Shown here piece after piece: positions 1 through 40,518 of a stretch of 41,099 bases of DNA (within the stretch, counting starts at the first letter, position 1; each line of letters starts with the position of its first letter). The DNA comes from Clostridia bacterium. GTDB lineage: Bacteria; Bacillota; Clostridia; Christensenellales; DTU072. The notes beneath the pieces are model-generated. The model ran no database searches and had not been told where the DNA came from. It saw only the letters and a list, made by a program, of their open reading frames with translations. The stretch covers positions 1-41,099 of the forward strand of contig JAIKVY010000189.1 of the NCBI GenBank assembly GCA_024685275.1, in the 5' to 3' direction. A program made the translations under genes and the position numbers.

Positions 1-68
1 ATCTTTAAATTGCAAAATGTATTTATTTAAAGAAATTTTTGGAAACAAAAATTGGGGGAAGAAAATTT

Positions 69-887
69 ATGAGTAATGCAAATACACAAAAGAAAGAAAA
101 GAAAAAGATATTAAATGATAAACAAAAAAAGATTGTTGATATAATAGTTACTGTAGTTCAGGTTATCGTAATTATATTGGCAATCGCTATTAGTATTATC
201 GTTATTGTCAATCCAATTGGATCAACCAATAATGTAGCTAGTGGCAGTATTAAATTATTACCTGTTTTATCAGATTCTATGAATGGCGCAGATGCATATT
301 ATACAAATAATCAATATGGCGTTACATTTGATATTAAAACTAGATTTAAAACTGGTGATTTAATTATTGCAAAAAATCCATATACTAACTATAGTGACTA
401 TAAGGTTGGAGACATTATTACATACGTAGGAAATGTTAATGGCCAAAGTGCTTTAATAACCCACAGAATTGTAAAAATTAATACATTCCCAGATGGATCT
501 GTAAATAGTTTTGTAACTCGTGGTGATGCTAATAATGCTGAAGATGCTGTTGTAAACCCATCTACAGTAAAAGCAGTATATAAGTCACACTTGAAAGGTG
601 TTGGTAATGCAATTAATTGGTTACAAAATTCAACTAACTTCTTATTAGTTATAGTACTACCTCTAGTATTATTATTCATATATAATATAATACTCGTTGT
701 CAGAATGATTATGGCTAATAAACTTGCAAAGGCTCAAGCTAGCGCAGCTAATAATGAAATCAATGAAGAAGAGATTAAGAGAAAAGCTGTTGAAGAATTC
801 CTAGCTCAACAAAAAGCAAAAGAAGAAGCTGAAAAACAAGAAACCATATCTGAAGAAAATAATGATTCAGATAATGGAGAAAACTAA
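69..887 (+). CDS. SipW-type signal peptidase I (Ser-His type)
   Basis: This is a membrane signal peptidase of the S26 ER/SipW type, expected to cut signal peptides outside the membrane. Numbered from the ATG at 69, there is a basic N-terminus, a hydrophobic segment at about 22-48, catalytic Ser70 in LSDSMNG, His132 in LITHRIV in place of the bacterial Lys, and the TRGDANN box (Asp153). A second membrane segment at about 191-216 precedes an acidic, Glu/Lys-rich cytoplasmic tail. The Ser-His pair is the hallmark that separates SipW/Sec11 enzymes from ordinary LepB. The frame stays open to a TTG at 39, but GGGGGAAG at 54-61 sits at proper spacing before the ATG at 69, so that start is preferred. 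It lies just upstream of three secreted proteins, two with SipW-type signals, which are its likely substrates. Confidence 0.88.
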   Translation: MSNANTQKKEKKKILNDKQKKIVDIIVTVVQVIVIILAIAISIIVIVNPIGSTNNVASGSIKLLPVLSDSMNGADAYYTNNQYGVTFDIKTRFKTGDLIIAKNPYTNYSDYKVGDIITYVGNVNGQSALITHRIVKINTFPDGSVNSFVTRGDANNAEDAVVNPSTVKAVYKSHLKGVGNAINWLQNSTNFLLVIVLPLVLLFIYNIILVVRMIMANKLAKAQASAANNEINEEEIKRKAVEEFLAQQKAKEEAEKQETISEENNDSDNGEN

Positions 888-905
888 TTTAGAAAACAAT
901 AAAAT

Positions 906-942
906 ATTAGATTGTAGTATTTTGTTATACTACTATTCTAAT
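906..942 (+). terminator. Hairpin between signal peptidase and substrate genes (terminator or attenuator)
   Basis: GTAGTAT (914-920) pairs with ATACTAC (927-933) around a 6-base loop. An outer ATTAGA/TCTAAT pair extends this to 13 base pairs with a small internal loop. It is followed by CTTTT, too short a T-run for a sure terminator. It could uncouple signal peptidase expression from that of the downstream genes. TTGACA at 946-951 follows directly and could start a new transcript. Confidence 0.5.
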
Positions 943-983
943 CTTTTGACAAATTTACGAAGGATTATAGATAGAAAAAGATA

Positions 984-1955
984 ATGGCAAAAAAGAAGAA
1001 GCTTGAGACAGAATTAGAAGAAACAGGAACTTCCCCTACTGTAAGTTCTAGTCTATCTTCAGATCAAAAACAAGATAAATATAGATACGTTATTAGAAAT
1101 AAACGTGCTAGACGTGAAACTAAAACTAAACGTATCGTTATTATCATTATAATTATTCTTCTTATACTTTTACTCGTTGGTGGAGCTGTATATGGCTTTT
1201 TATCAGCTGTAAGAGTAAATAATTATACTATCCAATTAACAGATTCTGTTACTGGAACATTATCTCTTTCTCAAGAAAAAGATGTAAATGCTGGAGCTAC
1301 GTCAGTTTTAGAAGTTGTAGGCCCAGAATTAATGGATAATACATCTTTATCAAAAACACACAATCTTTCTACAAATAGTTCTATTGAAACTGTACTTGAA
1401 GATATTATGAATAATGATGGTCAATATACAACTTCAAAGGATTGTTATATTGCTACCACATTCTATTTAACAAATACTTCAAGTGATGCAAAAATATATA
1501 GCGAATATCTTGAATTGATTGAAGCAACTAATGGAATTGAAAATGCTTTAAGAGTTATGCTTATTGAAGATGATTTGATTACCATATATGGAGCAGCTAA
1601 ATCAGTTTCTACTACTGATGAAAATGGCAATCCCGTTACTGTAAAGGAAAATGAAGAAGTTGTTCCAAAGATTAATTACCCTACTCTTTCAATTCAAACA
1701 GATGAAGATGGTACTCGCCATATCGTTAAAGATACAAGTAATGTATGGCTTTGTGAAGATTTTTATGGACAAGATGAAGATTCAAAAAGATATCTTATCT
1801 ACAATAAAAATATAAACTTGCCATCAAATACAACAAAGAAATATTCTCTTATTATCTGGCTTGAAGGAAATGATCCTGATTGCGTTAATAAGATCATAAA
1901 CGGAAAAATTAGAATCCAGTTCTCATTTACTGGTTCTGTAGATTTAAGTAATTAA
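984..1955 (+). CDS. Membrane-anchored TasA/camelysin-like surface protein
   Basis: A 323-residue protein with a Lys/Arg-rich cytoplasmic N-terminus (about 1-48), one very hydrophobic segment of Ile/Leu (about 49-72), and an extracellular domain. The ectodomain has YIATTFYLTNTSSDAKIY and, near the end, LIIWLEGNDPDCVN followed by a strand-rich close. That WLEGxDPDC-like ending resembles TasA/camelysin-type proteins, which are secreted through SipW. The long charged N-terminus before the hydrophobic part is unlike a simple signal peptide, so it may stay anchored. It sits between the SipW-type peptidase and two further substrate-like genes. I see no strong ribosome site; TTGACA at 946 and TAGATA at 968 would give a very short leader. 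The TasA relation rests on motif memory, not a search. Confidence 0.6.
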   Translation: MAKKKKLETELEETGTSPTVSSSLSSDQKQDKYRYVIRNKRARRETKTKRIVIIIIIILLILLLVGGAVYGFLSAVRVNNYTIQLTDSVTGTLSLSQEKDVNAGATSVLEVVGPELMDNTSLSKTHNLSTNSSIETVLEDIMNNDGQYTTSKDCYIATTFYLTNTSSDAKIYSEYLELIEATNGIENALRVMLIEDDLITIYGAAKSVSTTDENGNPVTVKENEEVVPKINYPTLSIQTDEDGTRHIVKDTSNVWLCEDFYGQDEDSKRYLIYNKNINLPSNTTKKYSLIIWLEGNDPDCVNKIINGKIRIQFSFTGSVDLSN

Positions 1956-1965
1956 GTAGGTGCAA

Positions 1966-2784
1966 ATGGCTATTAGTGCAATAAAAACTACAACTAGAAC
2001 CATATATAAGTTAACAAGTGGAATTATCCTCATTGTCGCCTTAATTATTGTCCTTTCCACAGCCACATATGCTTGGTACTCTACTTCTAATTTTTTAACA
2101 GCTAGTGACGTTATGTTCACTGCTTCTAGCAAGGATGCTTCAAACACACTAAGTATTGGTTGGGATCCTGATGAACGAGAAACTTCCATTTCTTTTGCTA
2201 ATATAAGTGGATCTGGAATTCATCCTATGATTCCAAAATATAATGGTATTTTAGGGACAACTACATACAATCAATTTATTAATTTCTGTAATGCTACAAG
2301 TAGTTTCGTTAAAGAAATTACTTCTGTAACTGATACAAACCCTGCTACTCTAACCAATCCAACAAATAATAAAAATACATTTTATTTGATAAATGGGCAA
2401 AATGAACCTTTATCAGTTTTACTTGGATATAACATCTCATACATTTTAAAAGATGGTGATTCATATGATGAAGAAGATAACCATTATTTAGATTCATACA
2501 AGTGTGCTCTATTTGCATCTGATTCTGAGAGTGATATTCAAAAATTAATCGGAATACTAAGTACTGATTCAACTATTCATTATGGCAATCTTGAAGTAGG
2601 ACAATCAGTAGAAAATACATCTGTAATGTTAGATGGTATATATAAGAAAAGTGGACAATTAGTAATTATCGTGCCAGCAAGTTCATATTTAAAAATGAAA
2701 GCAGTTGTTTGGTTTGATGGAGTAAATATGCTTGATACAGACCAAAATAAAACTATCTCGTTTTCTATGAACTTTACTGCTTAG
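1966..2784 (+). CDS. Secreted protein with SipW-dependent-type signal peptide, paralogue A
   Basis: A 272-residue exported protein of unknown function. Its N-terminus is a positively charged stretch, a hydrophobic core and the motif LSTATYAWYS, which is typical of SipW-dependent signal peptides and marks the probable cleavage region around residues 30-35. The rest is a strand-rich domain that ends with VVWFDGVNMLDTDQN, shared in form with the next gene. The start at ATG 1966 is chosen over the in-frame GTG at 1960 because AGGTG at 1957-1961 is the only ribosome site and overlaps the GTG. It follows the previous gene by 10 bases and is followed 9 bases later by its paralogue, so it is part of one operon. 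A fibre or matrix subunit role is inferred from the TasA-like context only. Confidence 0.7.
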   Translation: MAISAIKTTTRTIYKLTSGIILIVALIIVLSTATYAWYSTSNFLTASDVMFTASSKDASNTLSIGWDPDERETSISFANISGSGIHPMIPKYNGILGTTTYNQFINFCNATSSFVKEITSVTDTNPATLTNPTNNKNTFYLINGQNEPLSVLLGYNISYILKDGDSYDEEDNHYLDSYKCALFASDSESDIQKLIGILSTDSTIHYGNLEVGQSVENTSVMLDGIYKKSGQLVIIVPASSYLKMKAVVWFDGVNMLDTDQNKTISFSMNFTA

Positions 2785-2793
2785 GAGGAATAA

Positions 2794-3603
2794 ATGAAAG
2801 GAAATGGAAGAACTGCTATTAAATTAAACACATCTATCGTTATGACAATTTTACTTGTCGTTCTTTGTGTCGCTGCTCTATCAACAGCAACATTTGCATG
2901 GTTTTCATCAAATAGTACTGTTAACTTAACGCAAATTGAATTTACAGCAGCAACAAACTCGGAAATTGGAAATAGTGATTTATATATCTCATGGAACAAC
3001 AATGATATAGATGGAAAATATGAATTATCATTTGCTCCAGTCACTACTACTCTAGTTCCTATGATGCCAAAAACACAACTTGAAGTTGGAATGTCATATG
3101 AAGATTTTATCGCAAATTTCAATACCGCAGGTGTAACAGTTACGGAAGATGATTCAATATATGTTTCAAATGGCCGTAGCATTACACCATATACATGTTC
3201 TAATCCAACTAATATAGAACAAGGATATTTCTTCGTAAAAAATGGAAAAACAACTGATGCTGGAAATTCAAAATATATAATTAGTATAAAATATGAAATG
3301 ACTGGTGATTTACAAGATTTATTAAAAGTAGCTGTATTTAATAATGAAGAACTTGTAGGAGTTTTAACAAACAATGATACAGTTTACTATGGCAATATTA
3401 CTGCAGGCACTTTAGTTTCTGAAACTGAAGCAGATCATGATATTGCATTTTTATCTGATGAATTATCATTCGAAGTAACTGAAGGATTTACAAACTCAGT
3501 TAGATTTGTAGCTTGGTATGACGGCGTTGATTTACAAGATGATGACGCTAGCAAAACTGCTACTTTAACAAACATTATATTTGTTGGAACACCAACATTC
3601 TAA
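2794..3603 (+). CDS. Secreted protein with SipW-dependent-type signal peptide, paralogue B
   Basis: A 269-residue exported protein, a clear paralogue of the gene before it. It has a short basic N-terminus, a hydrophobic core and the motif LSTATFAWFSSN, then an ectodomain starting VNLTQIEFTAA. Near the end comes FVAWYDGVDLQDDD, matching the WFDGVNMLD motif of paralogue A. The two share layout and end motifs but differ in most positions between, as expected of an old tandem duplication. TAGGAGG at 2783-2789 joins the upstream stop codon and the ribosome site, so translation is probably coupled. Function is unknown; subunits of a surface filament or matrix, as for TasA, is the favoured guess. 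Confidence 0.7.
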   Translation: MKGNGRTAIKLNTSIVMTILLVVLCVAALSTATFAWFSSNSTVNLTQIEFTAATNSEIGNSDLYISWNNNDIDGKYELSFAPVTTTLVPMMPKTQLEVGMSYEDFIANFNTAGVTVTEDDSIYVSNGRSITPYTCSNPTNIEQGYFFVKNGKTTDAGNSKYIISIKYEMTGDLQDLLKVAVFNNEELVGVLTNNDTVYYGNITAGTLVSETEADHDIAFLSDELSFEVTEGFTNSVRFVAWYDGVDLQDDDASKTATLTNIIFVGTPTF

Positions 3604-3623
3604 TATAAAGAGGGATAATAATA

Positions 3624-5192
3624 ATGGGGTCGTTTGCTAACTTTTTTAAAGAATTTTGTAAGGTCTTTTTTGGAGGAATATTAGGTTTCTTCTACTCTGA
3701 CACTACTGTCGGAAATAAAGGCGGGTTAATTGGTGGTATTGTTCAAATGTTCAATATTCCACAGTACATTACTTTATATAACACATATAAAGATAATTTA
3801 TCGACTGGTGAAATTGTCGGAGCTGTTGCTTGTTTTATACTTGTTGCCTTAGTCTTTTTAGCCGCTATATTTTGTATTTTCTTTTTCGGTAGAAAATTAA
3901 TTAAGAAATTATTCGGTTCAAAAGTATTAAACGATGATTTAATTGCTGAAATTGATCAATTAAGAAAAGAATTAGTTAAGGTAACAAAAGAAAAAGACAG
4001 AATTTTAGGACTTAAAATTGCTTATCAAGGATATGATGTTTTAGAAGGTGAAAATGGTGAAGACACCAGCAGTGAAAAGAAAGAAGGTGAATCAAGATTC
4101 TATAAACTTACAGAAGTTGATAATATATACCTTAATCCAGAGTTTGTTCCAAAGGAATATCATTGTTATGATTACGACTTAGAAAAGTTATGTGACACAT
4201 TTAGATTTTATGCAGCAAACAACCCAGATCGTCCGTGGCGTAAACTTTATTATGATATCAAAACGATTCGTTTATTCTTCGCCTCATTTGCCACTACTAG
4301 ATTACTAATTTTACAAGGTATCTCAGGTACAGGTAAAACATCTCTTCCTGAATGTATTGGGCACTTCTTTAAGAATCCAACTACTATCGCTTCTGTTCAG
4401 CCTTCTTGGCGTGATAGAACAGAATTGTTTGGATACTTCAACGAATTTACTAAACGTTTTAATGAAACAGAAACTTTAAGAGCAATGTACGATGCTACAT
4501 ATAACAAAGATATATATATAACGGTATTGGACGAAATGAATATCGCCCGTGTAGAGTACTATTTCGCTGAAATGTTATCAATACTAGAAATGCCTTCAAG
4601 AGATCAATGGGTAGTTGACTTGGTTCCATCTGGTTGGCCTAGCGATCCAAAGCATGTTGAAAAAGGAAGATTTAGACTTCCAGAAAATATGTGGTATGTA
4701 GGAACAGCTAACAACGATGACTCAACATTCGCTATATCAGATAAGGTTTACGATAGAGGTATGCCTATTAACATTAACAGTAAGGCTGATCCGTTTGATG
4801 CTCCTTTAACAGAAGCATTACCATTCGACTATACTCACCTTGAAAAATTATTCAAAGAAGCACAAGAAAAATATAAGGTTTCTGATGAGAATTTACAAAA
4901 GTTTGAAGATATGGATAAATACGTTATAGAACACTTTAGATTAGCGTTTGGTAACCGTATTGTTAAACAATTGCGTGAATTCGTTCCTGTATATGTTGCT
5001 TGTGGTGGTACTGAAATTGATGGTCTTGATTACGTTTTGTGTAACAAAATTTTACGTAAATTTGAATCATTAAACTTAGCATATATTCGTGATGAAGTTG
5101 ATGATTATATCAAATACTTAGACGACCATTTTGGACCAGAAAACATGGGTGAATGTAAAGAATACTTAAATAGATTGAAGAAGTTATTCTAA
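3624..5192 (+). CDS. Membrane-anchored McrB-family AAA+ ATPase
   Basis: This 522-residue AAA+ NTPase has the McrB signature. The P-loop is GISGTGKT (232-239, Lys238). The Walker B stretch is VLDEMNIARVEYYFAEMLS (301-319), close to the DEMN.ARVEYYF consensus of McrB-type ATPases. Sensor 1 is GTANNDDS (360-367), and Arg378 in DRGM is a candidate finger residue. Unlike restriction McrB, the N-terminus holds a membrane segment at about 64-88, preceded by another moderately hydrophobic stretch (about 8-23), then a charged helix at 104-128. No DNA-binding domain is seen. GAGGG at 3610-3614 serves the ATG. The next gene encodes a DUF2357-like partner, the usual McrC-side neighbour. The motor probably works at the membrane on its neighbours' proteins rather than on foreign DNA; that role is inferred. 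Confidence 0.82.
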   Translation: MGSFANFFKEFCKVFFGGILGFFYSDTTVGNKGGLIGGIVQMFNIPQYITLYNTYKDNLSTGEIVGAVACFILVALVFLAAIFCIFFFGRKLIKKLFGSKVLNDDLIAEIDQLRKELVKVTKEKDRILGLKIAYQGYDVLEGENGEDTSSEKKEGESRFYKLTEVDNIYLNPEFVPKEYHCYDYDLEKLCDTFRFYAANNPDRPWRKLYYDIKTIRLFFASFATTRLLILQGISGTGKTSLPECIGHFFKNPTTIASVQPSWRDRTELFGYFNEFTKRFNETETLRAMYDATYNKDIYITVLDEMNIARVEYYFAEMLSILEMPSRDQWVVDLVPSGWPSDPKHVEKGRFRLPENMWYVGTANNDDSTFAISDKVYDRGMPININSKADPFDAPLTEALPFDYTHLEKLFKEAQEKYKVSDENLQKFEDMDKYVIEHFRLAFGNRIVKQLREFVPVYVACGGTEIDGLDYVLCNKILRKFESLNLAYIRDEVDDYIKYLDDHFGPENMGECKEYLNRLKKLF

Positions 5193-5217
5193 TAAACTTA
5201 AGACAAGGAATTATTAA

Positions 5218-7455
5218 ATGGCAGTTAATATTTACGAGAAAATTGTATACGAGATTAATAACCTCATTAAGCAAGAAGATATATACCCTAAATATGTAGA
5301 AAGTATATCTTCTGGTAAAAATGATTTTAAAATCTCACAAGTATACTCTAAAAAGAATTATTCAAGTGATTGGATTGCAACAATTGAAGATTGTGTAGTT
5401 TCACTTGATAACATCGTAAGAAATCCTCGTAAATTCATCGTTATTGAAGAAGATATCGTTGATATAAGTTTGGCTAGATCAATATCAGTTGAATCTGTTA
5501 AACACTTATCACAACATACAAACTTAATTTCTTCAGTTGATAAAAATGGTACAGTTATTCCTTCTAAAATCCTTAATACAAGTAAAGAAGAATCTTTCGA
5601 TATTTATGAAAATAGATTTATCTACACTCTTCTACTTAAGTTACGTGATTTTATTGAAAGAAGATTCCAGATTATGCAAAATGCTGCTTTGCAAAGTGGT
5701 GAACTTGGAGTTGAAATCCAATCTGATTTCTCTTTGAATAGAGATAATAAGGTTTCATTTAAACTAGAGTCTAATGCTAAATTCCCTTTCAATGAATTTG
5801 TTAAAAAGAAATCTAATAATGCTCAACCAACAGATATTGAAAGAATTTCTCATATTAAGATGGTTATTTCTGACTTCTTAGGTAGTCCGTTTGCTAGAGA
5901 AATGAGATCTTGCGCTCTTGTAAGACCACCTATTCAAAGAACAAACGTAATTTTGAAAAACCCTGACTTTAAAAAAGCATTAGTATTGTGGCAGTTTATA
6001 GAAACAGCTGAAAACATGGAGTTCAGTATTGATTCAATTACTGAAACTGTAGAATTACCTGATAATTTAGCTGATAAATATCGTGGTATTATTTTCCTCA
6101 ATACTGTTTTATTACAATCTATCGCTAGTACAAGAGAAGAAACAGAAAGTGTTGCTGAAGCAGAAAAACGTGAGAAAATCGAAGCTGATGAATATATTAC
6201 TAAGAATATTGATAATTTCGTTCCAGATGACTATCCTCTCTTAAAACTTGAAATTAATGAAATTAGATATATATATCAAGCTCTAACTTCTACTGATAAA
6301 GCACTCTCTCCTTTTGAAATAACAAAGATTAATTCTGCTATTGATAGAGTTTTGAGACAATATAATATTAATAAACTTGAAAAGAATGACTTAAAGAAAA
6401 AGCAATTAATCCTACAACAGCAATTAGATGAGAGAAAAGCAAAAGTATTAGCCTTAAGGGAAAAACGCGAATTAGAGCGTAAAGAAAGAGCTGAGAAAGC
6501 ACTTGCTAGATTTAAATTAAAACAACAAGAATATCATAACCAATTAGAAATAGATAAACTTAAAGAATTGCAAAGATTAGAAGCTGAAGAAAAAGAAAAA
6601 CAAATGGAATTAGAGCTTCAACGTCAAAAGGAAGAAAAAGAAGCTTCTATTAAAAGAGCTAATGAAGAATATGATAGATTGTCAAAAGAACAAGATGAAA
6701 AATCTAGATATTTAACTGAATTAAAAGAGATTCAAAAACAAAGAATTGAACATGAAAATTATTTATTGAATGAGAAAAATAAAGAACTTGTTGCTATAAA
6801 TGAAGAAATGACAAGACAAGATGAAGAAGCATCAACTAGACTTGCTAAAAAACAAGAAGAATATGATTTAGCAATTGCAGCATTTAAAGCTGAAGAAGAT
6901 AGACTTGAAGAAGAAAGAAGAAAACACGTAGAAGAAACTGCTTTAAAAACAGCTGAATTAGTTGAATTAGAAAAACGTAATAAATCATTAGATGATTTAG
7001 CTCACGAAAAAGATCAAAAAACACAAGATATTCATGATTCAATCTCTGCTGATTTAATTAAATTGAAACAAGAAAGTGATAAGTATTGGGCAGACCAATT
7101 AAAACTTTTAACAGATAATGAAATTGAAATGCGTGTAACTGCTATTCAAAATTATGAAGATACACAAAGAGTTCGTATTATTCAAAGACATCAACAAGTT
7201 ATTAAATACTTTAAATTAATACAAGCAGAACTTCAAAAGAATATTACTACATACAATATTGAGTCATTACAAGCTATTGTTGATATTCTTGCTAAAGATG
7301 TTACAAACAAACAAGCTATCGATGCAGCTATAAGCTATGATAAAGCAAGAAGAAAGAGAATGAGAAGATTATCAAAACGTCAACTCAAAAAACTTAGACA
7401 AGCTCAAGAAGAAGCAAACGAAAATCTTCCTGAAGCAAATAAAAAGATAGATTAA
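5218..7455 (+). CDS. DUF2357-like (McrC-side) protein with long coiled coil
   Basis: A 745-residue cytosolic protein with no signal or membrane segment. The N-terminal third resembles the DUF2357/DUF524 family found beside McrB-type ATPases: FDIYENRFIYTLLLKL at 127-142 and RTNVILKNPDFKKALVLW at 241-258. In relatives a PD-(D/E)xK nuclease would follow. I find no such motif here; from about 380 to 660 the chain is a charged coiled coil rich in Glu, Lys, Gln and Arg. The C-terminus is strongly basic (RRKRMRRLSKRQLKKLR). It lies 25 bases after the AAA+ gene with AAGGAA at the start. An adaptor or scaffold reaching from the membrane motor to a partner fits the architecture. The family assignment is from motifs and context. 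Confidence 0.65.
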   Translation: MAVNIYEKIVYEINNLIKQEDIYPKYVESISSGKNDFKISQVYSKKNYSSDWIATIEDCVVSLDNIVRNPRKFIVIEEDIVDISLARSISVESVKHLSQHTNLISSVDKNGTVIPSKILNTSKEESFDIYENRFIYTLLLKLRDFIERRFQIMQNAALQSGELGVEIQSDFSLNRDNKVSFKLESNAKFPFNEFVKKKSNNAQPTDIERISHIKMVISDFLGSPFAREMRSCALVRPPIQRTNVILKNPDFKKALVLWQFIETAENMEFSIDSITETVELPDNLADKYRGIIFLNTVLLQSIASTREETESVAEAEKREKIEADEYITKNIDNFVPDDYPLLKLEINEIRYIYQALTSTDKALSPFEITKINSAIDRVLRQYNINKLEKNDLKKKQLILQQQLDERKAKVLALREKRELERKERAEKALARFKLKQQEYHNQLEIDKLKELQRLEAEEKEKQMELELQRQKEEKEASIKRANEEYDRLSKEQDEKSRYLTELKEIQKQRIEHENYLLNEKNKELVAINEEMTRQDEEASTRLAKKQEEYDLAIAAFKAEEDRLEEERRKHVEETALKTAELVELEKRNKSLDDLAHEKDQKTQDIHDSISADLIKLKQESDKYWADQLKLLTDNEIEMRVTAIQNYEDTQRVRIIQRHQQVIKYFKLIQAELQKNITTYNIESLQAIVDILAKDVTNKQAIDAAISYDKARRKRMRRLSKRQLKKLRQAQEEANENLPEANKKID

Positions 7456-7462
7456 TCTTTTT
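7441..7462 (+). terminator. Weak AT hairpin at the end of the cluster
   Basis: AAAAAGAT pairs with ATCTTTTT around AGATTA, followed by more T residues. It overlaps the stop codon of the coiled-coil gene. The stem is nearly all A-T, so terminator strength is doubtful, but it sits between convergent genes where one is expected. Confidence 0.35.
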
Positions 7463-7526
7463 TTACTTAACATCCTGAATATTGATTATTTTTAAATTGA
7501 ATGAAATCTTTCGTTAAGATATTCTA

Positions 7527-8276
7527 TTATTCTTTTTTGTCTTTATTTTGGTTTTCTAAATACTCTTTTATTGCTTGTTCAGTTAATTCTCTTATACGTT
7601 GTTCTTTCTCTTCTTTTGTTAATATCTTATTGTCATTACTATCTTCAGTTTCTTTAGGAGTTTCTTTATACCCTTTAATCTTAATTACTAATTGATATAT
7701 AAGTGAAATAAATACAAGTGCTAATGGGATTATAATAAGAGTTGAAATACCTGCTGTTGTACTTAAAAAGTTATATAATTTTGATACTATACTAGCTTTT
7801 CTAACCATTTTAGCTTCAAGATTGATTATTGGTACAGGTTCATCTATTGTAGCGCCCTGTTTATCCCCTTTTGTTTTTATACAATATGTACCCTTTTCTG
7901 CATCAAAATAAACATCCTCAACAACTCTATGTGTATTTTGTACTACTTTTCCATCGAGAATCATCTTAAATGTAACTATATCTCCAACATCAATTTGAGC
8001 ATCAACTTTAGCATAATCATTGGTATCCGTTATTGATTTTGATATAATCATATCTTTTTCATTTAGCGTTGGTTCCATACTATCAGTTAGAACATAATAA
8101 AGTCTATATCCAAAAAGTGTTGCTTGATTTCCTCTTGTTGTTTGAATAATTACATATACAAAACAAACAAGTACAAATATAAATGCAGCTAACAATAAGC
8201 CAGAAATTACATAACTAAATATTTTTAATGCTTTAGGTCTTTGTTTTATTGTTTTCTTTTCTTCATTTTTAATCAT
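7527..8276 (-). CDS. Second SipW-type signal peptidase I (Ser-His type)
   Basis: A 249-residue signal peptidase with the same plan as the one at the start of the window. It has a basic N-terminus, a membrane segment at about 18-45, Ser66 in LTDSMEPTL, His116 in VQNTHRVV, and TKGDKQG (Asp138). A second membrane segment at about 174-200 is followed by a charged tail (EQRIRELTEQAIKEYLENQ). The SDSMEPT form is closer to canonical S26 peptidases than the first copy, which lacks the Pro. It points toward the cluster from the opposite strand. There is no ribosome site before the ATG at 8276; instead a TATAAT lies 6 bases upstream, so the mRNA is predicted to be leaderless. Having two such enzymes suggests separate substrates or a pro-peptide relay. 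Confidence 0.87.
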   Translation of the reverse strand: MIKNEEKKTIKQRPKALKIFSYVISGLLLAAFIFVLVCFVYVIIQTTRGNQATLFGYRLYYVLTDSMEPTLNEKDMIISKSITDTNDYAKVDAQIDVGDIVTFKMILDGKVVQNTHRVVEDVYFDAEKGTYCIKTKGDKQGATIDEPVPIINLEAKMVRKASIVSKLYNFLSTTAGISTLIIIPLALVFISLIYQLVIKIKGYKETPKETEDSNDNKILTKEEKEQRIRELTEQAIKEYLENQNKDKKE

Positions 8277-8282
8277 ATATCA

Positions 8283-8291
8283 ATTATACCA
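8283..8291 (-). promoter_or_regulatory. Extended -10 promoter giving a leaderless mRNA (signal peptidase)
   Basis: On the minus strand TGG-TATAAT (8291-8283) ends 6 bases before the ATG at 8276. Transcription would begin at or next to the start codon. I find no good -35 box; the TG extension may compensate. Confidence 0.6.
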
Positions 8292-8373
8292 TATTTATCT
8301 AAAACATATAACTCATGTAAATTATTTAAGATTATATAAATAAATATATCTTATCCTCTATTTTTAGTTAGTA

Positions 8374-8402
8374 TTGACAATTATTCATTATTACAATAAA
8401 TT
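8374..8402 (+). promoter_or_regulatory. Promoter of the uridine-kinase-like gene
   Basis: TTGACA (8374-8379), a 17-base spacer and TAAATT (8397-8402). The start codon at 8430 follows with a GAGGTG ribosome site, giving a normal short leader. Confidence 0.7.
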
Positions 8403-8429
8403 AGAAATATTGATAAGTTGAGGTGACAA

Positions 8430-9350
8430 ATGGAAAATATTACTGGTGTAACAAAAACTCAATTAGATTTAACTGATATTAATAGACTTTCAAAAGAAAA
8501 CCTAAAATTTTTAATTGAATTTTCTGCAAGAAAATACGATTGTGAAATTGAAGTTATTGCTAATAATATAATATACGGAAATAGACGTTTTGTTTTACTT
8601 TCTGGTCCCTCTTCTTCTGGAAAAACCACAACATCACTTAAATTAAAAGAAGCACTTGCAAAACAAGGTAGAGGTTGTGTAACAATTTCTCTTGATGACT
8701 TTTTTATCAATAGAGATAAAATTCCAAAATTAGAAGATGGAATGTATGATTTTGATAATTTTGATATATTAGATAGATTTACATTAAATAAATGTATTAG
8801 TGAATTAATGGATCAATATAATACATATTTACCAACCTTTGATTTTATATACGGCAAACGAACAGATGATTACAGACATATAAAAGTATCCGATAATGAT
8901 GTAATTATTATAGAAGGAACACATGCTCTTAATCCCAAATTGCTTAAATTAGAACATGATTTGTTTTATAGAGTCTATGTTTGTGTCTACTCTAATTTCC
9001 AAATCGATGGAAACACTGTTATTCCAGCTAAATTAGTTAGATTTATGCGTAGATTGATTAGAGATGTACAAGCGCGTGGAACTTCGATTGAAGAAACATT
9101 AGCTATGTGGAATCATGTATGTGAAGGTGAAGATAAATATATAAAGCCATATAGAGTTCTTGCTAACTATTTACTTGATACAACTCATATGTATGAACCT
9201 TTGTTATATCGTACATACTTAGAAGATTCTCTTAGACACTCAAAGAATAGTTATGGTATTGAGTTATATAATAAACTACAACACTGTGAATATCTTGATG
9301 AAAGCATATTACCAGATGATTCATTACTTTGGGAATTCTTAGTTAAATAA
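8430..9350 (+). CDS. Uridine kinase-like P-loop kinase
   Basis: A 306-residue nucleoside kinase of the uridine kinase/phosphoribulokinase family. GPSSSGKT at 59-66 is the P-loop, followed by ISLDDFF, the strand and acidic residues that bind sugar hydroxyls in Udk, and VIIIEGTHAL, typical of the family. About 50 residues precede the P-loop; the longer relatives in Firmicutes carry a TGS-containing N-terminal half (over 200 residues) that is absent here. The likely reaction is ATP-dependent phosphorylation of uridine or a related nucleoside, but substrate cannot be read from the sequence. It has its own promoter and ribosome site and is followed 54 bases later by a glycosyltransferase gene with a separate promoter. 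Confidence 0.8.
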   Translation: MENITGVTKTQLDLTDINRLSKENLKFLIEFSARKYDCEIEVIANNIIYGNRRFVLLSGPSSSGKTTTSLKLKEALAKQGRGCVTISLDDFFINRDKIPKLEDGMYDFDNFDILDRFTLNKCISELMDQYNTYLPTFDFIYGKRTDDYRHIKVSDNDVIIIEGTHALNPKLLKLEHDLFYRVYVCVYSNFQIDGNTVIPAKLVRFMRRLIRDVQARGTSIEETLAMWNHVCEGEDKYIKPYRVLANYLLDTTHMYEPLLYRTYLEDSLRHSKNSYGIELYNKLQHCEYLDESILPDDSLLWEFLVK

Positions 9351-34985: not shown

Positions 34986-37900
34986 TTATTTCTTTTTGCT
35001 TTTGTATTTGTGAATAACGTTTGTATTAGTATTCTTTTTTTCTTTTGGCTTCTTTGGAGCTTTTGGTTGAGTGTTTTTAGCTTCAGCAGCAGCCGTATCT
35101 GAATACTCATCGTCTTCAACAACTTCTTCTTTTCCAGCTGATGTTTCCTCGATCTTTATATCTTTTTCAGTCTTAACATCATTTTGGAATTCTTGTTTCT
35201 TTGGATGTCTCTTCTTCCAATTTCTAATTACTACAACTATAACAACTATGATAATTACAAGAGCAATTACGAAACTTGAGATATATAACCAGAAATATTG
35301 ATTATTTACTAATCTTGTCCAGAAGCTATCTTCTTGCGTTTCTTCTTCTGGGTCCTTTTCTGGTTCAGTTTCTTCTTCAGTTGCTTTGTATTCGTAATTA
35401 ATCGAAGTAGCTTCTTCATCAATGTTAGCTACAGCTGAGTCGTATCTTTCTTTCGTTATTTCTTCACAAGAAACTAAATCTACTGACATTAAACCAACTA
35501 TTAATTGATTCAAATCTTCATCAACTTTATCTTTATTATCATCATTAATAGTTACTGGATTGTTTCCTAAATAGAAACTCCAAGAAATATTCTTATCACT
35601 TTCAGTAGGATTGTATAAATATACTCTATATGTTACTGCATCATATGCACTTGAACCATATTCTAATGAACTAATTTTTGTTGAAATTGTTTCATCTTTA
35701 TCTGAATCTGGTGTAACTCTAAATTCACCATATGCTTTTTCTGTAGAATATGTATATTGTTTTGTTTCTGTACCATCTTCAGCAGTAGTTGTAGTTGTTG
35801 TAACTCCAGCAATTAAGGTTCTAGCTGTAAATGTAATTACATAATATTTACCCGCAGCAGCCTTTGGACGATATGAAGAAGAAAGAGAATAATATCTACT
35901 ATATCCGCCTTCAGCTTTATTACTTAAAGCTAAAACGTTTTGTCCACCATAATAAATAATATCGCCATCTTCGTTCTTTCTATTAACGCTTAGGAATTCT
36001 TTTAAGAATTCATTCCACTCTTCATCTTCCCAATCTTTAATACCTTTATCATTAAACTTTACATTTTCAAATTTATCAGCAAAGATATCATTATATGAAT
36101 AAGTAACATCAGATGAACCGCTCTTTGTAGAGTATAAGTATTTTAATGCTCCTACCATATTTTCAGAAGAATCAGTTACATTATATACACCATATGTTGA
36201 ATAAGATGTTCCGCTTGATAAACTTGTTTCATAACCAGCTGAATAATTTGAAGGAACATTTCCTAATTCAGTAGCACTGCTTGTTGGAGCTGTGAAAGCA
36301 TCAAACGAATCAACAATATAGTTCATTGTATAAATGTAATAAGGTGTTATTGTGTATAAATATTTATGATAATCAGATGCATATTTAGCATCGCCCTTAT
36401 TATCATTTAATTCTTTAGCATCAATATATTCTTCTTCATCTATTGCAGTAACTCTTGCAGCATCAAAATAAGCTGTTCCACTGCTTAATTCATTTGAATT
36501 ATAGTATGTTGAGTCACTATCACTTCCCTTTAATTTCTTTGCATTTGGATTACCTAATGTAAATTTAATGTACATTGAAGTAGAGAAATTAGAAGTTTTG
36601 ATAAAGAATGAATATTCTACCCATTTACCAGCTGTATCGACATTAACAAATCCTAAATTTGTATCATCAGTTTCAGCAATTAAAGAACCAGATGTTCCAC
36701 CTAAAACTATACTTGCTTTAGTTCCAACTTCAGTTTTTGCCCATACAGAAATCTTATAATATCCATCAGCTTCTAATGAAACTGAACTACTATGTAAACC
36801 ATATGCAACTTTATATGGAGAAGTTATTTTCAAAATTGTTGGATATGCTGAAACATAGTCAACACCTGTTTCTGGATTAGCTCCAAAAATATTATCAGCT
36901 TGGTGATTGCTTACAACAATTGCTCCAGCTTCTGCTTTACTTGCTTTTTCAGCGGTAACTGGTTCAAGTATTACATCAGATTCATTAGAACCAATATAAT
37001 TGCTTGTATATGTTGAAAGTGATGAAATACCATCTGAGCCTACTGCTTTTACAGCAAAACGAGTTTCTTTGCATGCTGTATCTGGTAAATTATATTCATA
37101 TACTTTATCAGTACTATCTGTATCTTGAACCATGATGATATCATATAATTTTTCAACTTCTTTGTTATCATCACCAATATACTTCATCCAAATTTCATAT
37201 TTAACTGGTTTAACTTTAGCTACATCTAATGTTCCTGTGCTTCCAGTAGAACCTTTAAACTTAAATACTTTATTTGCAGAATCTAAAGTAACTTCTGTTG
37301 GAGTATCATATGTATTTTGAATTTCAGAATCATATGTCCAACTATTAATACTTCCAATACCAGTTAATTGGTTATTTTCGTCAAATTCATCTTTTGAAGT
37401 CTTTTCATAATTAATATCTGAATAATGAGAATTAGTGAATAAAATTGAATCACTATCTATTCCATATGTTGCAGCACTTATAGAAACGCCTTTAACGATC
37501 TTGTCTCCTGTGCTTGCAGAAGAATATTCATCATATTCAATTTCCATTAAGTTGAATGCTTTTAAGTATGTTGTTCCTTTTACATATTTAGAAATATCAA
37601 ATCTGTTTCCATCGCCCATATTAACTTTAATTGTCATGTAATAGGTATCAGCGATATCACCTTTGATATAATAAACAACTTCAGCCCATTCACTGTCAGT
37701 TGAATATGCTGTTATAGAACTATCTAAAGCAGTTTCAATATTTGATTTATCTTTTCCACTTAAAAGTGTAATTGAAATACCAAGAGTTGAATCAACATCA
37801 ACTGTCTTAACCATAAATCCAAATCTATAGAATTTATTTGAAGCGATAGTTAATACATTTTCACCTTGATATGATACGCTACTAGCAGTAGCAACCGCAT

Positions 37901-40484
37901 TATTGAATTTTAATGTTGATAATTTAACTTGATTTCCTGAAACAATAATTTCATCAACAGTTTCTTCTAATGTAACTGTAACGTTTGCTGCATCGTTAGT
38001 TGCAGTATCTTCATTTAATTTATTAACCCAACCAGTTTGATCTACATCATGGATATCATCTTCATATAAATCACCGAATTGAACTTGTCCAACTTCATTA
38101 ATAACTGAAATATTTTCAAATTCAACTGCTGGTTTATTATCTTCATTGTATCTCTTTATGCTGATATCATTAAAGAATACACCACCTATCATCTTATTAG
38201 CATAATCATCACCTGTTCCTAAACAGAATTCAAGATTTAATTTTCTTGATGTTAATTGGCTTCCTGCTACATAGAATGTAATTTTTTGCCATGAACTTAA
38301 AGTTGTTGTATTTTTGGTTAAGCCATCATCAACACCAGTTAATTTAACTGTTGCGTATGGAATTGTATTTCCAGCATTAATCCATGAATTATATTTAGCA
38401 TTATATGCTTCTTTATCACTTAAGTATTTAACATTTTCTTCTTCATAATCTTCAACGTCTTTATTAAGTTTTGCTAATTTTGAAATATTTTCTTTTCTTT
38501 GGCTTAAATAAGCATTTTCAACAGCAGTTTTAACAGCATCATCAACTGTATTATCATCTTTGATTGTGTTATATACATAATAATAATAGAAGTATTGAAC
38601 ATCAGCATTTGTTATAGAATCAGCAGTTATTGTTAAATCAAGAGCATTAATAATAAATGCTTTTGTACCATTCATCATATCTGCAAAGTTTGCACCATCA
38701 TTATATTCATATACTCCACAGTTATCGCTGTTAAATGCATTAGCTTTTGTTTTTTCTTCATCTGTTAAATCATTAAAATATGTTGTTGAGAATTTTTCAG
38801 CATTATTTAATTGACTAAGTTTATATACATATTTTTCATATGAAGACCATTTTTTATCATCAGTTCTTGGATCCTTTGGTGCACTTGTTCCAAAGTCTGC
38901 AAAATATGTAAAGTCTCCATTGTATTCTTTAGCCCATACATATGCCCATACTGAGATTTCATAATATGAGTTATCTTCAATAATGATATCTTCTTTTGAT
39001 TTGATTGAATTTGCTTGTAAATCTTTGTTGTAGATCATTAGAGCATATGTAGAATCTAATTCGCTTATCTTATGATTATTTGAATTCATAACTACATCGA
39101 GCCATTCATCATAACTCATCATATTAATGTTATATGAAGAACCACCAATTAAAGATGTATAATTATCAGTAATTGTTGATGTATCTTCAACTTCTTCTCC
39201 AGCAATATCATATAATAAATCTAAATTTACATATCCATAATATCTTGCATTTAAAGAAGATTCACTTGTTGTCATAGAATATTTATCAAGGTTTGAGTTC
39301 TCATAGTCTTCTCTGAAAGAATAGAAATATTTACGGTAACTGTTGGTGGTATAACTTGTTACGTGTTTTCTATTTGATAAATCAGCACCTTCCATGTAAT
39401 AAACACTCTTAGCTTGAGCATATTTATAATTGTTTGAATCTTTTCCTGATGTTAAATTTGCTTTTAATGAAGCAAATCTATCAGCTGAGAAAGCATAATT
39501 ATCTAAATTAGCATCGAATTCTCCAAAGCTAATTCCATTTGCAGTTTTATCAGCATCACTTATTAATTCATCGCCTTTTGCTAAATCAACTTCTTCGCAA
39601 ATAACGTTATCAAATAATGCAACTCCTCTAACTGAATATATATCTTTCTTATCATTCTTATATGTATCAGAAGAAGCAATTCCTGGTCCATATCCAAGCC
39701 ATAATTCAATATCAATCTTTACATCATTAGTTTTGTTTGTTTCGATAAATAAATAATATGTTTTCCATTCACCATTTGTATTGATGTTTGGAACAACATA
39801 TTCAACGTCACCCTTCATAACGAACCAAGCACCGCCGACATTATAACTTTCTGCTGTATAAATTTTTGAACAAACAGAAAATTGGAATAAATATGTTTTA
39901 TCTTTCTTTAAAGTATATTGGCTTTTATTCTTAACAAAATGAGAACCAGCTGTTTCAACATTTGCCAAAACTAAAACATTTGTATCTTCTTTTTGTTTTT
40001 TATATGAATTATCTTCATTTTTAACCTTATTGCCATCTTCATCTAAAACATATTGTTCTGGAGTATGGGCAGTATCTAAACCAGGATAATCAAGAGTAAC
40101 ATAATTTTCTGCTGTCAATGCCTCTCCAGATTCATCTGTCGTGATTGTTAAATACTTTTCTTTAATTAAGTTGTAATCACTTTCATTAGCAATGTTAATG
40201 ACAGCTGACATAACTCCACCAGATCCATTTGCTGATGTAGTTTTGCTTGCACTTGATTGTGTGAAATCTGAAATCTCATCTAAAATGCTTGTGTCCCCAC
40301 TAGTTGAAGTGCTGGTTGTTTTAGCATTATAGAAAGTTCCGTTTGCGATTGTATGAGTATAAGTTGGAGTGCTTTCGCTCTTACTTTCATCCTCATTTTT
40401 CGTGTAGTCTTGACATGCGACTAACATAACCGCTACAAGTAATACCATTATTACTGTAAGTATTGAAAATAACTTTTTCTTCAT
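34986..40484 (-). CDS. Giant surface lipoprotein with CBM-like modules and C-terminal membrane anchor
   Basis: A 1,832-residue predicted surface protein. The signal peptide ends in the lipobox VMLVACQ. A Ser/Thr-rich linker follows. The long ectodomain contains several modules with a shared pattern of carbohydrate-binding (CBM4/9-like) jelly rolls: an aromatic-rich strand such as YYKISVWAKT or FYRFGFMVKT, a W-x-x strand such as GKWVEYSFFIKT or SEWAEVVYYIKG, and an ending around L-x-F-x-LG...FDxI. I count at least five. A membrane segment (about 1730-1755) and a basic, Lys/Pro/Glu tail close it. Having both a lipid anchor and a C-terminal helix is unusual. ATG 40484 is chosen over GTG 40493, which overlaps AGGTGG. 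Function is unknown; glycan binding is inferred. Confidence 0.8.
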   Translation of the reverse strand: MKKKLFSILTVIMVLLVAVMLVACQDYTKNEDESKSESTPTYTHTIANGTFYNAKTTSTSTSGDTSILDEISDFTQSSASKTTSANGSGGVMSAVINIANESDYNLIKEKYLTITTDESGEALTAENYVTLDYPGLDTAHTPEQYVLDEDGNKVKNEDNSYKKQKEDTNVLVLANVETAGSHFVKNKSQYTLKKDKTYLFQFSVCSKIYTAESYNVGGAWFVMKGDVEYVVPNINTNGEWKTYYLFIETNKTNDVKIDIELWLGYGPGIASSDTYKNDKKDIYSVRGVALFDNVICEEVDLAKGDELISDADKTANGISFGEFDANLDNYAFSADRFASLKANLTSGKDSNNYKYAQAKSVYYMEGADLSNRKHVTSYTTNSYRKYFYSFREDYENSNLDKYSMTTSESSLNARYYGYVNLDLLYDIAGEEVEDTSTITDNYTSLIGGSSYNINMMSYDEWLDVVMNSNNHKISELDSTYALMIYNKDLQANSIKSKEDIIIEDNSYYEISVWAYVWAKEYNGDFTYFADFGTSAPKDPRTDDKKWSSYEKYVYKLSQLNNAEKFSTTYFNDLTDEEKTKANAFNSDNCGVYEYNDGANFADMMNGTKAFIINALDLTITADSITNADVQYFYYYYVYNTIKDDNTVDDAVKTAVENAYLSQRKENISKLAKLNKDVEDYEEENVKYLSDKEAYNAKYNSWINAGNTIPYATVKLTGVDDGLTKNTTTLSSWQKITFYVAGSQLTSRKLNLEFCLGTGDDYANKMIGGVFFNDISIKRYNEDNKPAVEFENISVINEVGQVQFGDLYEDDIHDVDQTGWVNKLNEDTATNDAANVTVTLEETVDEIIVSGNQVKLSTLKFNNAVATASSVSYQGENVLTIASNKFYRFGFMVKTVDVDSTLGISITLLSGKDKSNIETALDSSITAYSTDSEWAEVVYYIKGDIADTYYMTIKVNMGDGNRFDISKYVKGTTYLKAFNLMEIEYDEYSSASTGDKIVKGVSISAATYGIDSDSILFTNSHYSDINYEKTSKDEFDENNQLTGIGSINSWTYDSEIQNTYDTPTEVTLDSANKVFKFKGSTGSTGTLDVAKVKPVKYEIWMKYIGDDNKEVEKLYDIIMVQDTDSTDKVYEYNLPDTACKETRFAVKAVGSDGISSLSTYTSNYIGSNESDVILEPVTAEKASKAEAGAIVVSNHQADNIFGANPETGVDYVSAYPTILKITSPYKVAYGLHSSSVSLEADGYYKISVWAKTEVGTKASIVLGGTSGSLIAETDDTNLGFVNVDTAGKWVEYSFFIKTSNFSTSMYIKFTLGNPNAKKLKGSDSDSTYYNSNELSSGTAYFDAARVTAIDEEEYIDAKELNDNKGDAKYASDYHKYLYTITPYYIYTMNYIVDSFDAFTAPTSSATELGNVPSNYSAGYETSLSSGTSYSTYGVYNVTDSSENMVGALKYLYSTKSGSSDVTYSYNDIFADKFENVKFNDKGIKDWEDEEWNEFLKEFLSVNRKNEDGDIIYYGGQNVLALSNKAEGGYSRYYSLSSSYRPKAAAGKYYVITFTARTLIAGVTTTTTTAEDGTETKQYTYSTEKAYGEFRVTPDSDKDETISTKISSLEYGSSAYDAVTYRVYLYNPTESDKNISWSFYLGNNPVTINDDNKDKVDEDLNQLIVGLMSVDLVSCEEITKERYDSAVANIDEEATSINYEYKATEEETEPEKDPEEETQEDSFWTRLVNNQYFWLYISSFVIALVIIIVVIVVVIRNWKKRHPKKQEFQNDVKTEKDIKIEETSAGKEEVVEDDEYSDTAAAEAKNTQPKAPKKPKEKKNTNTNVIHKYKSKKK

Positions 40485-40518
40485 TTTTACCACCTATAAA
40501 CTTCTTTATATTCAGTTT

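Follow-up and report, generated by a model that had tools for sequence, protein, structure and literature searches.

A predicted CoCoPALM-type operon of Clostridia joins a membrane-anchored McrB-like NTPase to SipW-type signal peptidases and probably TasA-like exported proteins

Why would a relative of the McrB restriction motor be encoded among signal peptidases and the proteins that these may cut? The locus analysed here raises this question, and its initial annotation answered it with a surface-fibre assembly or secretion machine driven by a repurposed McrBC-like motor. The window, i.e. the whole stretch of DNA under study, is one entire contig of 41,099 bases from a draft genome that is 89% complete with 5.6% contamination. 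All seven ORFs that had been placed together were confirmed at their positions between 69 and 8276 (Table 1). The cluster starts 69 bases from the left end of the contig and, as the contig begins at window base 1, genes upstream of SipA may be missing. The six plus-strand genes are tightly spaced as first described, with successive gaps of 96, 10, 9, 20 and 25 bases. The widest of these, annotated as a hairpin gap, does fold better than shuffled sequences, yet no terminator was called there; promoter-like and terminator-like sites across positions 1-9000 were no commoner than in shuffles. Elsewhere in the window, the minus strand holds an ORF of 1835 aa (34986-40493) that, judged by eye, resembles a lipoprotein; its C-terminus has a membrane helix and a lysine-rich tail.

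Table 1. Features of the cluster, in window coordinates
Feature	Position	Strand	Description	Match or alignment
SipA (P0001)	69..887	+	SipW-type (Ser-His-Asp) signal peptidase A	TIGR02228, E 1e-15
Gap SipA-ExpA	888..983	+	96-base gap with RNA hairpins, no terminator call	Fold z -2.67
ExpA (P0002)	984..1955	+	Membrane-anchored exported protein	A4, family of 37
SubB (P0003)	1966..2784	+	Exported protein, STATYAW SipW-type signal	A3
SubC (P0004)	2794..3603	+	Exported protein, STATFAW SipW-type signal, beta-rich model	A3
NTPase (P0005)	3624..5192	+	Membrane-anchored McrB-like AAA+ NTPase, NxD branch	
Walker A	4317..4340	+	GISGTGKT codons of the NTPase	A1
NxD+D motif	4710..4721	+	Codons of N363-N-D365-D366	A1
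DUF2357 protein (P0006)	5218..7455	+	DUF2357 (McrC N-terminal domain) and long coiled coil	PF09823, E 8e-9
SipB (P0007)	7527..8276	-	SipW-type (Ser-His-Asp) signal peptidase B	TIGR02228 and PF10502, above cut-off

The two Ser-His signal peptidases are borne out. Both pass the TIGR02228 cut-off of 51.85 bits (58 bits for SipA, 54.7 for SipB) and carry Ser, His and Asp at the aligned catalytic columns, which among 151 peptidase relatives hold Ser in 146, His in 145 and Asp in 121. Against the SipW model NF046067, with its cut-off of 190, both scored below threshold (56.8 for SipA; 64.3, E 1e-17, for SipB). SipA has a transmembrane (TM) helix at each end and a charged C-terminal tail.

P0005 was likewise rightly recognised as a membrane-anchored ATPase of the McrB family. 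It matches the McrB model (E 3e-5), McrB structures (E 4e-5) and, under the cut-off, AAA_5 (E 7e-4), and it has a single TM segment, located at the N-terminus and followed, by eye, by a coiled-coil-like stretch in alignment A1. A TM segment precedes Walker A in all 93 complete ATPases of SipW-linked loci and in none of 15 comparators. Walker A and NxD residues are invariant in 19 of 19 sequences of A1. The window's own motif, GTANNDDST, is ambiguous when taken singly, as NNDD could also pass for NxxD; in the aligned columns, all 140 ATPases have N and D, and the next residue is D in 120 of them and E in the other 20, while two McrB rows with NxxD (L084, L086) show S and A at these columns. Since the NxD motif is present in all 140, an McrBC origin of the motor is supported at the level of sequence. 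Pfam reported AAA_5 and an insignificant coiled-coil match only, though an undescribed DNA or RNA specificity domain could escape such a scan.

Next to the motor, P0006 was correctly described as a DUF2357-like coiled-coil protein: its PF09823 match lies above the cut-off, the coiled coil follows the domain, and the profile of the DUF2357 alignment (A2) retrieved coiled-coil proteins only from among solved structures. The PD-(D/E)XK nuclease (PF04411) was found in none of seven proteins at the DUF2357 position, namely P0006 and six SipW-linked relatives, two of which have DUF2357 itself below the reporting limit; it is present in four of four comparator DUF2357 proteins. A repeated domain of about 100 aa, delimited by eye, recurs in DUF2357 proteins, a pseudo-EAL protein and a 2-TM protein (L055:11029-14067, L056:6014-8881, L031:2815-4623, L048:11977-14403), with no convincing Pfam match in the three proteins scanned.

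For the three exported proteins, the assignment of SipW-type motifs to two of them stands, whereas the label 'TasA-like', initially given to one, does not single it out: ExpA, SubB and SubC are members of one superfamily, probably distantly TasA-like, and so the label is not confined to any of them. Profiles seeded with mature SubC and with mature ExpA converge on 246 and 217 proteins, 215 of them in common, and a comparison of the two alignments gives a match of 98.8% (98.1% without the signal segments). ExpA, a candidate base or anchor, has a basic N-terminal tail, a TM helix and a C-terminal WLEG-DPDC motif, and is without the SipW motif. When ExpA was compared by hhalign with a Peptidase_M73/TasA family built from PF12389 (TasA/camelysin) places, it matched at 83% (E 9e-6), with reversed controls reaching 0.5% at most. 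On the other hand, SubC alone reached only 11.5% against that family, which counts against a fibre reading, as does the absence of the SipW motif from 140 of 245 superfamily members examined, ExpA-kind anchors included. PF12389 itself had no match in the three proteins or in the window's own genome, and SubC matched TIGR04088 under the cut-off (E 0.0068). AlphaFold2 models are beta-rich (pLDDT 79.6 for SubC, 77.8 for ExpA). Foldseek returned nothing at E <= 1e-3 for either model; the archaeal bundling pilus 7ueg was the top hit for SubC, at E 0.018, and ranked twelfth for ExpA, at E 0.021, both short of significance. A search of solved structures gave no match for A3 and only two receptor chains for A4 (E 0.6 and above), and there were weak matches only in Pfam and NCBIfam scans of A3 and a Pfam scan of A4. 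Taken as a name for the superfamily, 'TasA-like' is likely to fit, short of proof. Besides, larger exported proteins of about 300 to more than 2,500 aa, several with SipW-type signals, lie downstream of many operons (L102:13593-14468 and the loci of components 6, 8 and 11); these are possible tip proteins or adhesins.

The initial annotation knew of no described system that joins such genes. This was wrong, as CoCoPALM systems had already been named in 2024 (Bell et al. 2024, eLife, PMC11090510; preprint PMC10542128). The main text of that paper describes an NxD motif, usually followed by E or D, in an NTPase fused to an FtsB-like TM and coiled-coil domain, with signal peptidase family genes nearby and an McrC homologue (DUF2357) bearing a coiled coil. 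The window has the counterparts in its NxD McrB-family NTPase with a membrane-anchored N-terminus, its DUF2357 coiled-coil partner and its signal peptidase genes; on the features tested, the predicted proteins make it a CoCoPALM-type operon. The passages on CoCoPALM in PMC11090510 give no substrates, EAL gene, structure or mechanism, and the words TasA, SipW, EAL domain and cyclic di-GMP are absent from its main text, although its supplements may hold more. Among open-licence literature, with the other hits judged by title, CoCoPALM in this sense led only to Bell et al. and the preprint; a search from 2023 onwards for McrBC with signal peptidase, pilus assembly and coiled coil found nothing beyond these two, and SipW together with McrB retrieved only an unrelated strain list. 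What is new here is the exported superfamily, probably distantly TasA-like, the absence of the nuclease from the DUF2357 partner, and an often degenerate EAL gene upstream.

How regularly do these genes travel together? Among 200 genomes of the host's order, P0005 has matches in 56 (81 places, E <= 0.001). Linkage was counted at 71 of the 81 places, ten weak ones of 67 bits or less being omitted, against 126 TIGR02228 places (down to E 4.3e-11) over the 200 genomes. A SipW-type peptidase lies within 10 kb of 26 of 27 ATPase places scoring at least 450 bits (25 genomes), against 0.86 expected under uniform placing, and two or more peptidases lie near 14 of the 27. The single unlinked place starts at base 2 of its contig. 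Linkage among weaker ATPase places was 2 of 22 at 300-450 bits, 3 of 6 at 200-300, 0 of 10 at 100-200 and 0 of 6 below.

Searching contigs with the ATPase alignment gave at least 587 relatives, of which the best 80 were taken as named loci; the depositors' names for these 80 include Christensenellaceae, Oscillospiraceae, Ruminococcus, Lachnospiraceae, Clostridia, Bacilli and others. Where at least 4 kb are available on both sides (44 of the 78 loci scored), SipW-type genes are present in 44, DUF2357 in 44 and the exported kind in 43, with two or more SipW-type genes in 25. Over the 78 named loci scored (L091 and L133 were dropped, no ATPase being called, and the ORF caller favours long ORFs), the counts are 71 for SipW-type genes, 35 for two or more of them, 73 for DUF2357 and 68 for the exported kind. 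These exported-kind counts come from profiles that include the membrane segment, those for strand and superfamily from mature-part profiles. Every core gene called in the 78 loci shares the strand of the ATPase (exported 202/202, peptidases 108/108, DUF2357 74/74, EAL 39/39); the window's SipB, inverted and convergent, is an exception. Immediately upstream of the ATPase stands a SipW-type peptidase in 53 of the 78 and an exported-family gene in 13; DUF2357 follows immediately downstream in 67. The cluster is real and conserved, and the co-occurrence across genera that had been set as a test is clearly positive. At the level of sequence, an NxD NTPase, a nuclease-less DUF2357 coiled-coil protein, one or two SipW-type peptidases and paralogous exported proteins are inherited together on one strand.

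Comparators came from 299 genomes drawn from the phylum, in which 42 besides the window's own match the ATPase profile, with no score above 146 bits. In 20 of their loci with flanks, the same profiles detected no SipW-type, exported-family or EAL gene; the ATPase was called in 15 of them, and the DUF2357 profile finds 7 genes. A tree of 83 ATPase domains (named loci randomly sampled to about one third, duplicates L087, L088 and L097 omitted; a quick method that leaves several forks open) puts the window inside a clade of 40 rows (SH-aLRT 95), 36 of which are SipW-linked, and the SipW-link label changes 7 times on the tree, compared with 27.9 in shuffles. L032/L087 was scored there as lacking SipW, though a TIGR02228 match missed by the ORF caller exists. 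It had been proposed that ATPase/DUF2357 pairs lying elsewhere, away from SipW and TasA genes, would speak against the joint reading. Given the clearly positive co-occurrence, this does not hold for the window's branch; it does for a sister clade (2 of 22 places linked) and for the 20 distant loci (none linked). That the sister clade is mostly without SipW counts against a fibre reading.

The sister clade (15 rows; L051, L053, L054, L057, L058 and L060-L064, e.g. L053:4615-19998 and L054:1-16168) often has its ATPases as tandem pairs that enclose a DUF2357 gene. Giant 1-TM proteins are encoded next to them, and one of these proteins (L053:13056-16322) contains a transglutaminase core (E 2.8e-23). 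The same profiles found no SipW-type genes at these loci, which may represent a second surface system that uses the same motor. At L051:7489-12444 and L054:7827-12656, the AAA domains of the two tandem ATPases are the same within each genome, whereas the two genomes differ, a pattern suggestive of gene conversion. A third architecture is seen at L065, L066 and L067, where a multi-TM form of the ATPase (607-613 aa) adjoins a SipA-like peptidase and a partner of 428-431 aa.

With these counts at hand, a chance or hitch-hiking neighbourhood of genes that have no joint function seems very improbable to us. The inverted SipB of the window would fit it, as would the SipW-type genes that occur elsewhere too (13 of the 53 peptidase places in the 25 carrier genomes are unlinked, 40 linked); the near-complete linkage within the order and among the well-flanked named loci, the clustering of the label on the tree and the common strand in the named loci all argue against it.

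Many relatives have a further gene upstream of the operon, which encodes an EAL domain (Pfam E 5e-21, 1e-33 and 2e-45 for the three upstream ones tested). Of the 35 named loci flanked by 6 kb on either side, 24 have such a gene; its absence from the other 11 counts against a fibre reading. Of the 39 EAL genes in named loci, 38 are upstream. Among 58 aligned EAL domains from named and order loci, 8 retain at least seven of the eight active-site residues and 50 no more than four, a split that is firm even though some domains may be misaligned and single residue losses are therefore unsure. Within the order, carriers of the ATPase (at least 450 bits) differ from other genomes in having EAL (23/25 vs 50/175, Fisher p 1e-9), GGDEF (4/25 vs 74/175, p 0.015) and EAL without GGDEF (19/25 vs 2/175, p 2e-19), the tests being read with the caution that related genomes are not independent, drafts can miss genes and the counts were compiled by reading. 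As EAL occurs mostly in carriers without GGDEF, the domain in most carriers is probably not responding to c-di-GMP made by a canonical cyclase. In the window's own draft genome there is no match to EAL, which likewise counts against a fibre reading, or to GGDEF, and c-di-GMP control is unsupported there; the contig ends just left of SipA, about where the EAL gene would be expected. In some lineages (L049, L055, L056, L163), the operon is followed downstream by genes for membrane proteins whose EAL active site is intact; the two of these that were scanned (L056, L163) also match GGDEF weakly.

What, then, might the motor do? Its ancestry lends itself to a membrane-bound anti-phage system derived from McrBC, in which the surface proteins would sense attack and the NTPase would trigger a response without a nuclease of its own. 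Such a system, which we regard as distinctly unlikely, would be in line with the match of P0005 to the PADLOC candidate-defence profile PDC-M26A (E 2e-37) and with the uneven divergence from the near relative L031: in this one comparison the NTPase is 81% identical, DUF2357 53%, the peptidases 61 and 49%, and the exported proteins only 40, 29 and 29%. It sits poorly with the lack of a nuclease match in P0006 and its six relatives and with the constant pairing with peptidases and exported proteins. The neighbourhood was considered as a defence island by running padloc on 80 of 245 non-core neighbours. A few gave strong matches (MzaA, E 2e-74; RT_UG29, E 4e-56; AbiQ, E 5e-31; ToxN), and among the matches listed (25 of 32 families) no family occurs in more than two neighbours; with so small a sample and no control set, the result weighs little for or against a defence island. 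Carriage as plasmid or phage cargo was unsupported, with 259 matching plasmid records, none covering more than 80% of the query and all below 60% identity, and two phage records.

Alternatively, the NTPase might serve membrane quality control. Membrane-anchored AAA+ proteins are often dislocases, and the ring could pull uncleaved or jammed SipW substrates, or the peptidases themselves, from the membrane by handles such as the charged tails of SipA, SipB and ExpA, while fibres form without it. We consider this fairly unlikely, because its partner is a DUF2357 coiled-coil protein rather than a protease and the upstream EAL gene suggests regulation.

Taken together, we lean slightly towards reading the locus as a CoCoPALM-type operon in which a restriction motor has been turned into a membrane engine that assembles or handles SipW-processed surface fibres. 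Of the surface-fibre machine first proposed, gene linkage and McrBC ancestry hold up; that the motor drives fibre assembly is plausible from the predicted proteins, with weak matches to donor-strand families, and the peptidase-substrate pairing is likely. To our knowledge, the Bacillus TasA operon needs no such motor, which we count against the fibre-motor reading. As in the TasA-TapA-SipW system of Bacillus subtilis, there is a SipW-type peptidase, exported beta-rich proteins with SipW-type signals and a distant profile similarity of ExpA to TasA/M73; the window differs in having a pair of peptidases and several paralogues, in encoding a membrane NTPase together with a DUF2357 protein, and in giving no significant structural match. 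With McrBC and its nuclease-bearing NxD relatives, the operon shares the AAA+ core, the NxD motif (in the comparators) and the DUF2357 partner, but it differs in its TM anchor, its missing nuclease and its other neighbourhood.

In the mechanism that we favour, SubB and SubC would be exported by Sec and then held by their signal helices until SipA or SipB cuts before the aromatic residue. As summarised in one account of the Bacillus operon (tapA, sipW, tasA), TasA subunits join by a donor-strand mechanism (PMC9674648). The freed N-terminal strand of SubB and SubC would allow donor-strand exchange of this TasA/AbpA type, with growth starting from ExpA, an uncleaved membrane protein, as the base. 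The membrane NTPase ring would be activated through the DUF2357 stalk, in the way that McrC activates McrB, and would act on cytosolic tails of ExpA, the peptidases or the precursors; it would thereby drive, gate or order the release of subunits and the growth of the fibre. As for the pseudo-EAL protein, it might be a cytosolic adaptor or a former c-di-GMP receptor, comparable to FimX for the pilus motor PilB. In the type IV pili described in the cited accounts (PMC8389850, PMC5595344), an EAL-type protein likewise stands beside a surface-fibre motor; motor and fibre are unrelated to those considered here, and the parallel is one of analogy only.

In its boldest form, which we hold tentatively and at somewhat less than an even chance, the proposal is that a DNA or RNA restriction motor was domesticated as the engine of a new class of surface fibres in gut and rumen Bacillota. 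It would have lost its nuclease, gained an anchor, acquired dedicated SipW-type peptidases and fast-diverging TasA/AbpA-type subunits, and retained a pseudo-EAL adaptor even where no GGDEF was found. If true, we know of no earlier example of a donor-strand fibre system with a cytoplasmic NTPase of its own. In the open-licence literature, CoCoPALM has so far been a name and a few sentences, without substrates or function; the likely substrates, the missing nuclease and the EAL-type partner make it a testable machine. Should fibres indeed be assembled, an immunity motor would have been recruited to build the cell surface of gut and rumen bacteria that are uncultured and about whose surface structures little is known.
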